A DNA stretch of 64,000 nucleotides from Methanogenium sp. S4BF. GTDB lineage: Archaea; Halobacteriota; Methanomicrobia; Methanomicrobiales; Methanomicrobiaceae. The first letter of the stretch is position 1; each line of letters begins with the position of its first letter. The position numbers were made by a program, and so were the translations under genes. This document shows positions 53,810-57,352 of the stretch, piece after piece. A model generated the notes under the pieces. The model did no database searches. It had not been told where the DNA came from and saw only the letters and a program-made list of their open reading frames with translations. The stretch is from NCBI RefSeq assembly GCF_029633965.1, contig NZ_CP091277.1:248001-312000 (forward strand), in the 5' to 3' direction.

Positions 53810-54850
53810 TTAGGGGCTGCCTGATCTGGTCTTCATCCATGTGGAGAGAAGTCCGAAACAGCCTGTCAGCATCATGTCGCCATACGGTGACGCCTGATAT
53901 GCATCCGGAATGAGGAGTCTGCGGTTTGGGCCGGTAACGGCGATGAGTGACGAACTGCATGCGTGGTGTACTGCTGCTCCATGCCCGTTGTCATCAAATA
54001 CCTCTTCATTTGTCAGAGAGCCTTTCTGGAGTTTTGTAAGGTAATCCCGGCATGTTCCGCTATTCAGCAGCACTCCTGTGTGATGTTCAAAAACTCCGCA
54101 GATCTCTTCTCCCACTATGGTAAAAGCCAGTGTATGGCCGTTTCCTGCATTTACGATGGTCACACCCTTGTCCCGGGCATCCCGCACAACCGGGTCCTGA
54201 AGTGCACCCAGCACTGCGGCAGCGCCGGTATCCATTACAAGTGCATGAGGCTCTGTCTCAAGAATTGCATGCATCCTGGTCATCGATGCATCCGGGGGAT
54301 CCTGAATGAGTGAGCTGATATTCCAGTTTCCTCTTTCAAGAGTCTCTTTCAGATGGAGAAATCTGAATTTTCGGTTGCTCATATGCGGACTATAGCCGTG
54401 GTCCTGCACTGCGACTGCCAGATTTTTTGGATATTCAATGCCAAACCGTGAAAATGTCTCCTTCAGTTCGGCTTTCATATAATCCCCGGTCCGGATAATG
54501 AAGGCATCTTCCGGAGGGGTATCGGTGATCGTAACGCCGATGCTCTTAACGTAATCAAGATTGTCACGAATAGATAGCGCTGCTGAGGGTGTTGCAGAGA
54601 GCTTCAGACCTTTTGGAAGCCATTGCTTAATGGTCTGGGTATTTTTCCCTCCCCCCATCACAGGCCCTTCGAGATGGACTGCTTTTCCCTCTGCTGCAGC
54701 CTTCTCAATTGCCATCCCTGTTATCACATTTGGTGACGGCAGAACCATTTTGATTGAGTTTTCAATAGGCTGGTTCGGTGAATAGAGTAATATGTCCTGT
54801 GTCCCCTTCCCTACGTCAAGGAGGAGGATCGGTTCGGATGGCCCTCTCAT
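53810..54850 (-). CDS. DUF1786 family protein
   Basis: 346 residues. N-terminal LLLDVGKGTQDILLY and a later VIVNAGNGHTLAFTI-type segment look like phosphate-binding loops of an actin/hexokinase-type fold. Other family parts are GPVMGGGKNTQTIKQWL, DHGYSPHMSNRKFRF and VMDTGAAAVLGALQDP. The family has been loosely labelled as related to pyruvate formate-lyase activation, but it has no radical-SAM cysteines and no proven function. It starts 29 bases after the nrdD stop on the same strand. Confidence 0.8.
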   Translation of the reverse strand: MRGPSEPILLLDVGKGTQDILLYSPNQPIENSIKMVLPSPNVITGMAIEKAAAEGKAVHLEGPVMGGGKNTQTIKQWLPKGLKLSATPSAALSIRDNLDYVKSIGVTITDTPPEDAFIIRTGDYMKAELKETFSRFGIEYPKNLAVAVQDHGYSPHMSNRKFRFLHLKETLERGNWNISSLIQDPPDASMTRMHAILETEPHALVMDTGAAAVLGALQDPVVRDARDKGVTIVNAGNGHTLAFTIVGEEICGVFEHHTGVLLNSGTCRDYLTKLQKGSLTNEEVFDDNGHGAAVHHACSSSLIAVTGPNRRLLIPDAYQASPYGDMMLTGCFGLLSTWMKTRSGSP

Positions 54851-54879: not shown

Positions 54880-57081
54880 TTAAACTTCTACCCGTCTGTC
54901 AGCAACAGACAGGCATGACTCCGGATTCTTTTCAGACCGGTATTCTTTAAACTGTTTGAGAGATACGGTGAGATCGCGGGTGAAGGCAAAGTAACCAATC
55001 TGCGTATTCCTGCAGAGATTCATCGCCATATCCATCAGACCGCGCGGGTCAGGCCTTGCTTCACCCAGCCATATATGAAAAATATTGCCCCCGTCAACAA
55101 TGGGGAAGAATACATGTTCTATCTCAATCCGTTTCGTCAAAGGAACATCCGCACCCGGTGTAACATGAGTTCCGTTCGTATAGTATACAGGGAGATCAAA
55201 TTTTTGTCCCAGTTCCGGAATTGCCGTATCCAGATCACCTTTGATCACCTTTTCAGCATGCGGCCGGAAGTTCTTGTCTATCAGATCTGCGATGGCAAAT
55301 CTCTGTCCGGTTGTCTCAGCCGGTGTCCTGGCCAGAGCAATTGTCATTCCTGTTTTCATGGAAATTTCATGGGAATACAGCTCCATCTCTGTCAGTGCCC
55401 GGATTGCAAAATTGAATGCTTCGCGGCTTTCGTGCAACTGGTACCCGGTGTGGTGCTGGACCATCTCATTAATGCCAACGATGCCAATGGTATATACCAG
55501 ACCCTCAAAATCAACCGCAATTGGGCCGCGTTCTTCCATTTCGGGATCGTTTGGGTCTTTTGGCCGCTGCATGGCAAATGGCATCCGTCCGGTTGACCGG
55601 ATGTGGTTCATCCAGCGTCGTTTAATCCGGAAGATTTCAACTGAGACATCCATTAATTTTTTGAGTTCTGCAAAGAGCCGTTCATCGTCCCCCTCTGCTT
55701 TATATGCTGCACGGGGGCAATTTACAGACAATACCTGCCATGAACCCATGGAAAAATGCTTTCCGTCTTTGAACAGCATTTTATCATAAAAATCATCATC
55801 TTCGTTTGCAAGAGAGGAGAATTGATACGCACAGCACTGGTAACAGGAAATTCCTTCTCCGGCACCACGGTACGCCGGAATCTGATTGTCATAATATGGG
55901 GTGCCATATTTTGATGCAAGTTCGAATGTCATCAGGTAGAGGTCATTGTATGACGGGACATCCGGATTTGTTTTATTAAATTCCTCATCCTCTGTCAGGA
56001 AATCCGGTTCGATGCTGATTTCAGGTTTTGGGAAGTTAAATGGTTTGCCCCAGTAGTCGCCTTCCAGCATTACTTCCATGAGAGCCTTGAAGAGAAGTCG
56101 TACTTCCCGCTCAAACTCGCCATATTTTCGTTCAGGGGCCTGTATTCCATTCCATATCTTTCCTTTGTAGACGCATGGTTTCTCTTTCCAGAGTGCTGGT
56201 ACTCCGGGTGAGAGCTGAACAGATGAGAATACAACCTGCCCCCCGCGGGCTACCATCATCTGTGTCATTTCGTATACAAACATCTGCATGAGCTGCTTGA
56301 TTTCGATATACGGCAATCCTTCAAAATACGGGGCCAGAAATGTCAGAAAATTATAGTATCCCTGTCCACCTGCAAAATTCGTCTGAGCGCTGCCAAGTGC
56401 CTTAACCGCATGGAGTACAGCAACTTCAGCGCGTTTTGCAGGACCGGCGACAGATGCCTTTGTTCCGCTCCCATCCGGCATCAGGCCGTAATACAGGAAA
56501 TACCGCAGATCCCAGTCCTGGCAGAACGGGCGTGTCCCGAAATATTCAAGGTCATGGATGTGGAGATCGCCTGCCAGGTGGTAATCAGCCAGTTCAGGAG
56601 GCAACTGAAGCAGATATTGTTCTTTACTAATTTTATCCGCTTTCTTCTTGTGCGATGTTTCTGCATTCTCCTGGAGGTTTGCATTATCATGCGCCTCAAA
56701 TCCTCTGCCAACATCAATTAAATGTGCATCAAAGACCGGAGTACCAACGCGTGTACATACATTCCTGTAACTGACCAAATCCCGCTCAAGAAGAGTAATG
56801 TTCAGAATTTCTCTGACTAACGGGCCTGAAAGGGATTTTAGTTTGAGCTTTTTAATTTTGTTTTCAACATCAAGTGCAAGCTCACGCGCAAGGTGTTCGT
56901 CTGCACCATCGCCCCCATAAAATGTTTCGACAAGTTGTGTTTCTTTGAGAATCTGTGTTACGATCTTTTCCCTGTCCCATTCTACAATATGGCCCCTCGA
57001 TGTTCTGACTTTGGGAAGAGTTGGTACAAAGAAGCCATCAAGGGTCTGCTGAGTCTCTGCATGACGGGGATTTTTTGGCAT
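54880..57081 (-). CDS. nrdD: Anaerobic ribonucleoside-triphosphate reductase, lacking the usual C-terminal radical loop
   Basis: 733 residues. An N-terminal ATP-cone (about 25-120) is followed by the class III barrel: DLHIHDLEYFGTRPFCQDWDLR, AGGQGYYNFLTFLAPY, QLSPGVPALW and YYTNGTHVTPGADVPLTKR. The conserved end of the barrel reads HIWLGEARPDP...IGYFAFTRDLTVS. Where relatives then carry a four-Cys zinc site and the glycyl-radical RVxGY motif, this ORF has only ~25 more residues (one Cys) and stops. ATG 57081 is 1 base after the glutaredoxin-like gene. NrdG is not in the window. Confidence 0.88.
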   Translation of the reverse strand: MPKNPRHAETQQTLDGFFVPTLPKVRTSRGHIVEWDREKIVTQILKETQLVETFYGGDGADEHLARELALDVENKIKKLKLKSLSGPLVREILNITLLERDLVSYRNVCTRVGTPVFDAHLIDVGRGFEAHDNANLQENAETSHKKKADKISKEQYLLQLPPELADYHLAGDLHIHDLEYFGTRPFCQDWDLRYFLYYGLMPDGSGTKASVAGPAKRAEVAVLHAVKALGSAQTNFAGGQGYYNFLTFLAPYFEGLPYIEIKQLMQMFVYEMTQMMVARGGQVVFSSVQLSPGVPALWKEKPCVYKGKIWNGIQAPERKYGEFEREVRLLFKALMEVMLEGDYWGKPFNFPKPEISIEPDFLTEDEEFNKTNPDVPSYNDLYLMTFELASKYGTPYYDNQIPAYRGAGEGISCYQCCAYQFSSLANEDDDFYDKMLFKDGKHFSMGSWQVLSVNCPRAAYKAEGDDERLFAELKKLMDVSVEIFRIKRRWMNHIRSTGRMPFAMQRPKDPNDPEMEERGPIAVDFEGLVYTIGIVGINEMVQHHTGYQLHESREAFNFAIRALTEMELYSHEISMKTGMTIALARTPAETTGQRFAIADLIDKNFRPHAEKVIKGDLDTAIPELGQKFDLPVYYTNGTHVTPGADVPLTKRIEIEHVFFPIVDGGNIFHIWLGEARPDPRGLMDMAMNLCRNTQIGYFAFTRDLTVSLKQFKEYRSEKNPESCLSVADRRVEV

Positions 57082-57082
57082 A

Positions 57083-57352
57083 TCAATCTCCCCGAAGCAC
57101 TAAATCAACGACTTCCCCGCGAACCCCTTCAGCACCAAAGAGGTCTTTTGATGTCAAAAACGTTGTTCCGATCTGGAGAACCGGTGCTTCACGGACGAAT
57201 ACATTATTAATTCTGAGTTCTGTCAATGCCTCTGCTTCCATCATATTGCGGATGGTATACGGCATACCTGCCTCATTCAGGTATTCCTTGAGAAGTTCGC
57301 AGTTCGGGCAGTTTTCAAGCGTGTACACATTGATCTTGGCTGCATCTGTCAC
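57083..57352 (-). CDS. Glutaredoxin/NrdH-like redoxin
   Basis: 89 residues. The redox motif CPNC is at positions 15-18 (INVYTLENCPNCELLKEYL), with a cis-Pro region REAPVLQIG. GTG 57352 is the likely start, with GGGGGAT 8 bases upstream. The frame is open further but that part is antisense to thpR. Its 3' end is 1 base from nrdD, so it probably supplies electrons to the reductase, as proposed for redoxin-dependent class III enzymes. Confidence 0.85.
   Translation of the reverse strand: MTDAAKINVYTLENCPNCELLKEYLNEAGMPYTIRNMMEAEALTELRINNVFVREAPVLQIGTTFLTSKDLFGAEGVRGEVVDLVLRGD

Follow-up and report, generated by a model that had tools for sequence, protein, structure and literature searches.

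A predicted two-gene class III ribonucleotide reductase in Methanomicrobiales and its standalone radical-domain relatives

The 64,000-nucleotide stretch of DNA analysed here (the window; Methanogenium sp. S4BF, contig NZ_CP091277.1, positions 248,001 to 312,000) carries an nrdD gene for a class III ribonucleotide reductase (RNR) that ends before the zinc site and glycyl-radical loop of such enzymes. Very probably, the class III RNR consists of two subunits, with this gene encoding the catalytic barrel and a separate protein of 120 residues providing the zinc-bound glycyl-radical domain. The sequences show that both halves exist, that they occur and are missing jointly and are each under constraint, that the barrel was truncated once, and that nrdG2 is present. 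Judging by this evolutionary evidence, the two-gene class III RNR of Methanomicrobiales appears to be real and functional, and to belong to a broader group of NrdD radical domains that stand alone.

An NrdD barrel that ends before its radical domain

The open reading frame at 54880-57081 on the reverse strand (733 residues) matches the Pfam profile NRDD (PF13597) with 449 bits, over profile positions 1-516 of 562 only, and TIGR02487 with 467 bits (cut-off 326), over positions 2-543 of 581; the protein thus contains the NrdD-type catalytic barrel of class III RNRs. After IGYFAFTRDLTV, the chain continues for 27 residues with a single Cys and then stops. In alignments with fused NrdDs this tail (54880..54963, reverse strand) is non-homologous and takes the place of the zinc site and the glycyl-radical loop, neither of which is found in the same chain, and RVxGY is absent past the barrel end in every frame of the nrdD strand. 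The earlier note on this DNA had read the gene in the same way, with about 25 residues in the tail, and the profile coverage bears it out. When aligned with Prevotella copri NrdD, the conserved part of the window barrel stops at about residue 675, and the published junction of that enzyme lies between a core at 123-671 and a glycyl radical domain at 676-739 (PMC11226230).

In 29 other loci of the order the barrel ends at the same place, at profile positions 510-516, and is followed by a poorly conserved tail of about 20-35 residues. As the other barrels share this end point, the break is not a local sequencing error. The small frameshift and deletion suspected in the earlier note find no support either, the truncation being order-wide and ancestral and the tail being conserved coding sequence: the congener G107 keeps it (...ESCLSVADRRVEV), with synonymous changes. 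Against the congener, the ratio of non-synonymous to synonymous substitution rates (dN/dS) is 0.046 for the barrel and 0.043-0.086 for the small gene, and both genes are under strong purifying selection. Cys187, Cys413, Cys416, Cys417 and Cys455 are invariant in all split and all fused NrdDs of about 800 residues that we aligned, so that the conserved active-site cysteines of class III RNRs are in place. Residues 413-417 (codons at 55831..55845, reverse strand) probably form the radical-cysteine loop. The zinc cysteines of the fused chain, by the same alignment, are lost from the split barrels. We give almost no credence to the idea that nrdD is a pseudogene, created by a recent frameshift or an assembly error and encoding a dead enzyme. 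The absence of the radical domain from the chain would fit it, but an order-wide end point under purifying selection, a conserved tail, invariant cysteines and a partner gene elsewhere in the genome all speak against it.

Close to the break, Cys690 of the barrel (55012-55014) is invariant in split barrels, the corresponding residue being alanine in 95% of the fused enzymes; a contact with the small subunit is possible. In families f1-f6 of the order, many nrdD barrels lie in open frames of about 1050-1740 residues with a broken profile match, and these probably carry inteins. Most of the listed barrels, intein-bearing ones included, end at profile positions 510-516, and where a match is shorter, the piece sits at a contig end or around an insert. 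We considered a link with inteins for the window barrel too, but it lacks an insert of this kind and no domain is recognised in its tail, so that nothing suggests trans-splicing.

A separate protein carries the radical domain

The window genome is a single contig of 2,513,916 bases, in which a PF13597 search hits two places only, the barrel and G000:C1:2354379-2354555. The second match spans profile positions 499-562 and falls within a gene for a 120-residue protein (G000:C1:2354370-2354729, reverse strand), outside the window and about 2 Mb from nrdD, with the translation MNWTPEQLSLKEKYHTLEDIPVEERRYKCHTCHHVVDEKPCPCCGETQLVIMCPLDHCHCTHSITETIEYCPLCGQPVCPDCGSHDVSQVSRVTGYLADVAGWNQGKQQELKDRSRYTVA. 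Its C-terminal half corresponds to NRDD profile positions 503-562 and is the part missing from the window NrdD, namely a CxxC/CxxC zinc site, SRVTGYL and then GWNxGKQQELKDR. A profile built from this protein and its relatives matches P. copri NrdD at residues 697-736, including the radical Gly711, with an E-value of 2e-8. The N-terminal half contains CxxC pairs and CPLDHCHC, and has no evident counterpart in the aligned fused enzymes of about 800 residues. PF13597 is the sole match of the small protein in a Pfam scan, which detects no glycyl-radical domain of the pyruvate formate-lyase (PFL) type such as defines GrcA/YfiD. A fused glycyl-radical domain elsewhere in the window genome was considered and is excluded by the same PF13597 search.

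The earlier note held that the enzyme should be inactive unless a separate peptide completes it, and it proposed a genome search for such a peptide and for nrdG. Both genes were found, and a suitable peptide does exist; the notion of an inactive enzyme fares badly, given the strong purifying selection on the barrel, its conserved cysteines and the apparent lack of another RNR in some genomes.

The setting of the small gene is fixed, between pyrF and RPA: pyrF is present in 77 of 80 loci, a deoxyhypusine synthase gene in 75, a zinc-finger-like gene in 77 and RPA in 73, and many of the misses fall on short contigs or at contig ends. The nearest named relatives are Methanogenium species.

Occurrence and signs of retained function

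We surveyed 199 genomes of the order, combining the tables for the barrel and for the small protein. Both pieces occur in 163 genomes, neither in 25 and only one in 11. The two-gene arrangement is thus common to nearly the whole order. All 25 genomes that have neither piece belong to one genus code, g21, and 24 of them encode a class II RNR (PF02867); six g21 genomes with weak matches to the small protein (E about 1e-4) were counted as lacking it. The 11 genomes with one piece are all drafts less than 95% complete, with the large piece alone in G038, G086, G138, G188 and G195, and the small one alone in G055, G095, G127, G144, G147 and G194. We also noticed a second, near complete fused NrdD of 569 residues (L182, G001:C1:590703-592373) in a genome that holds the split enzyme as well.

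Class I/II RNR (PF02867) is present in 159 of the 199 genomes, including that of the window. A protein search for NrdJ gave no match in 12 well-assembled genomes that encode both halves of NrdD, including G155 and G113, each a single contig; a partial match was seen in a thirteenth genome, G018. The split enzyme is therefore the only RNR found in those 12 genomes, and it looks like their sole one. The radical S-adenosylmethionine activase of class III RNRs is represented in the window genome by NrdG2 (TIGR02495, 150 bits, cut-off 131), encoded 62 kb from nrdD. In G443, a genome from outside the order, the NrdG2 gene directly follows nrdD.

Directly upstream of the window nrdD is a gene for an NrdH/glutaredoxin-like protein (57083..57352, reverse strand; PF00462, 23.8 bits), whose start codon is approximate, the listed frame extending to 57850. 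Such a gene lies just ahead of nrdD at 28 of the 29 split loci and at 22 of the 24 fused ones, and its product is the probable reductant of the split RNR. Its position is consistent with an NrdH-dependent class III RNR subtype of methanogens, reportedly described by Wei et al. in 2015. All in all, the split enzyme appears, on sequence evidence, to have retained its function.

As for the mechanism, NrdG2 would abstract a hydrogen from Gly95 in the RVTGY motif of the small protein, generating the glycyl radical. The small protein would then dock into the barrel like the attached C-terminal domain of a fused enzyme, the radical would be exchanged with a cysteine of the Cys413-417 loop, and the NrdH-like protein would supply the electrons. 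With an exchangeable radical subunit, a domain cut by oxygen could also be replaced without remaking the barrel. A dissociable radical domain is mechanically plausible, because the attached domain of PcNrdD becomes disordered in the dATP-inhibited state (PMC11226230).

Several points weigh against this proposal. Complex formation between the two proteins and their activity are what we infer from the sequences. The window genome also encodes a class II NrdJ, so that the split enzyme need not be essential there. The joint loss of the two pieces, being confined to one genus, counts as a single event. AlphaFold modelled the small protein poorly (predicted local distance difference test score, 69), so that the model was discarded, and a PDB fold search with this protein gave no match at E 0.001. 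Finally, the trees of the radical domain described below rest on only 61 columns.

Origin of the split

A tree of the barrels (696 columns, with paralogs of 610 residues as root) places the split ones in a single clade (100/100) nested inside the fused NrdDs, so the truncation took place once, from a fused ancestor. The radical-domain trees are weak inside; nevertheless, one branch separates all standalone domains from all fused ones (97/98, or 99/99 when the viral sequences are added). In the simplest history, the origin or spread of a spare radical domain came first, and the main chain lost its own domain later. Probably the small protein was at first a free-standing spare beside a fused NrdD, in the manner of GrcA/YfiD, and turned obligatory once the C-terminal domain had disappeared from the NrdD of the ancestor of Methanomicrobiales. 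The standalone gene may have come from a virus.

One might still suppose that the barrel works with a radical other than a glycyl radical and that the small protein serves something else, since the genome encodes a class II NrdJ and class II barrels work without glycyl radicals. This is extremely unlikely: the barrel is nested inside glycyl-radical NrdDs, the two genes share their pattern of presence and absence, NrdG2 is there, and NrdD is the only Pfam family that the small protein hits.

Standalone radical domains outside the order and in viruses

Of the sampled genomes outside the order that give a match, most encode an ordinary fused NrdD, and the standalone members (family codes f8, f24 and f36, other Halobacteriota) sit in genomes with a complete NrdD. 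They thus resemble GrcA/YfiD in that these standalone proteins copy the radical domain of an enzyme that is itself complete in that cell; in the window genome no complete NrdD accompanies the standalone copy, its only NrdD being the one without a radical domain. Standalone proteins beside complete fused NrdDs were observed at L173:5765-6124, L174:5862-6215, L175-L178 and L195-L199, and these are candidate spare parts of NrdD. Another standalone copy, L179:5819-6160 in G252, has a sequence past RVTGY that looks frameshifted or decayed.

These relatives raise the question of whether the small protein of the window genome, too, is only a GrcA-like repair part for oxygen-cleaved NrdD, rather than an obligatory subunit. 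Their presence beside intact fused NrdDs and the copies on viral contigs without a barrel follow the pattern of YfiD and T4 Y06I (PMC8683613). Yet the window genome, like most Methanomicrobiales, has no fused NrdD to repair, and its barrel would therefore be left with no glycyl radical unless the small protein supplies it. A repair-only role, likely for the relatives outside the order, is very unlikely in the window genome, where we favour an obligatory subunit.

Two scans of IMG/VR yielded 15 distinct viral contigs. Eleven distinct kinds encode a standalone protein of about 100-150 residues with no barrel in the record, these records being fragmentary and a barrel elsewhere in the virus possible: L200, L203, L204, L205 (the same as L201), L206, L207 (the same as L202), L208, L209 (with the near-copy L210), L211, L212 and L215. 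Three contigs (L213, L214 and L216) encode an NrdD with its own radical domain. Neighbouring genes code for terminases, a portal protein, baseplate proteins, primases and Cas4-like exonucleases, the evidence from neighbours being weak for L204. The standalone genes are candidate auxiliary genes of methanogen viruses, with hosts suggested by similarity only. In the radical-domain tree the L200 copy nests among Methanomicrobiaceae, and it is likely a recent gain from a host. Searches of plasmids and phage records returned NrdD radical-domain matches below 60% identity that cover about half of the query or less, and most of the annotated ones lie within complete NrdD genes. We lean slightly towards a general scheme in which Halobacteriota and their viruses share exchangeable NrdD radical subunits, obligatory in Methanomicrobiales, spares beside fused NrdD elsewhere, and carried by viruses that would bring only the radical subunit, with which to drive or mend the reductase of an infected host.

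Comparison with known systems

The split enzyme shares its barrel, conserved cysteines, NrdH-like neighbour and NrdG2 with fused class III NrdDs (P. copri 8p23 and the NrdDs of about 800 residues of other Halobacteriota), as well as the sequence of the zinc and glycyl-radical domain. Unlike in these, the radical domain is a distant, separate product with an added N-terminal cysteine-rich module, and nrdG2 is not beside nrdD. The PFL spares GrcA/YfiD and T4 Y06I are likewise small standalone glycyl-radical domains copying the C-terminus of an enzyme, in hosts and viruses (PMC8683613), but here the domain is of the NrdD type with zinc cysteines, and the main enzyme of this order, unlike that served by GrcA/YfiD, has no radical domain of its own. 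T4 carries Y06I as a spare part of PFL (PMC8683613), which is a close parallel of the viral standalone NrdD radical proteins. The class II NrdJa/NrdJb of Pseudomonas aeruginosa also has its catalytic chain in two genes (PMC4520616; PMC9669993); it uses a B12 radical, however, and is not a glycyl-radical enzyme. The barrel families differ as well, the window protein having no match to the class I/II barrel PF02867 in the Pfam scan.

In the glycyl-radical enzymes studied, the radical glycine lies within the catalytic chain; spare domains have been validated only for PFL, and their existence for other glycyl-radical enzymes was called a tempting speculation in 2021 (PMC8683613). Our results offer concrete spare-part candidates for class III RNR, including an apparent fixed end state in which the spare has turned into a subunit. 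The finding predicts that radical docking is titratable in trans. If the general scheme of exchangeable radical subunits outlined above is true, PFL would no longer be the only glycyl-radical enzyme with a spare-part system. No account of a divided class III RNR turned up in the literature searched, which did not cover the Wei 2014/2015 papers on class III RNR subtypes (methanogens included), so that a prior mention is possible. The finding also assigns a function to an unnamed archaeal gene, coding for 120 residues, and to an auxiliary gene of viruses. Before an NrdD with a short C-terminus is labelled a pseudogene, the rest of the genome should be searched.

Other features of the locus

The N-terminal part of the barrel protein contains an ATP-cone-like region (56767..57012, reverse strand), a weak match to PF03477 (21.6 bits, E 3e-4, below the cut-off of 25.8). 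On the other side of nrdD, a DUF1786 gene (53810-54850) starts 29 bases past the nrdD stop, as the earlier note had it. The Pfam name of this family is putative pyruvate formate-lyase activating enzyme, and the gene also adjoins nrdD in 9 of 29 other split loci with short flanks.
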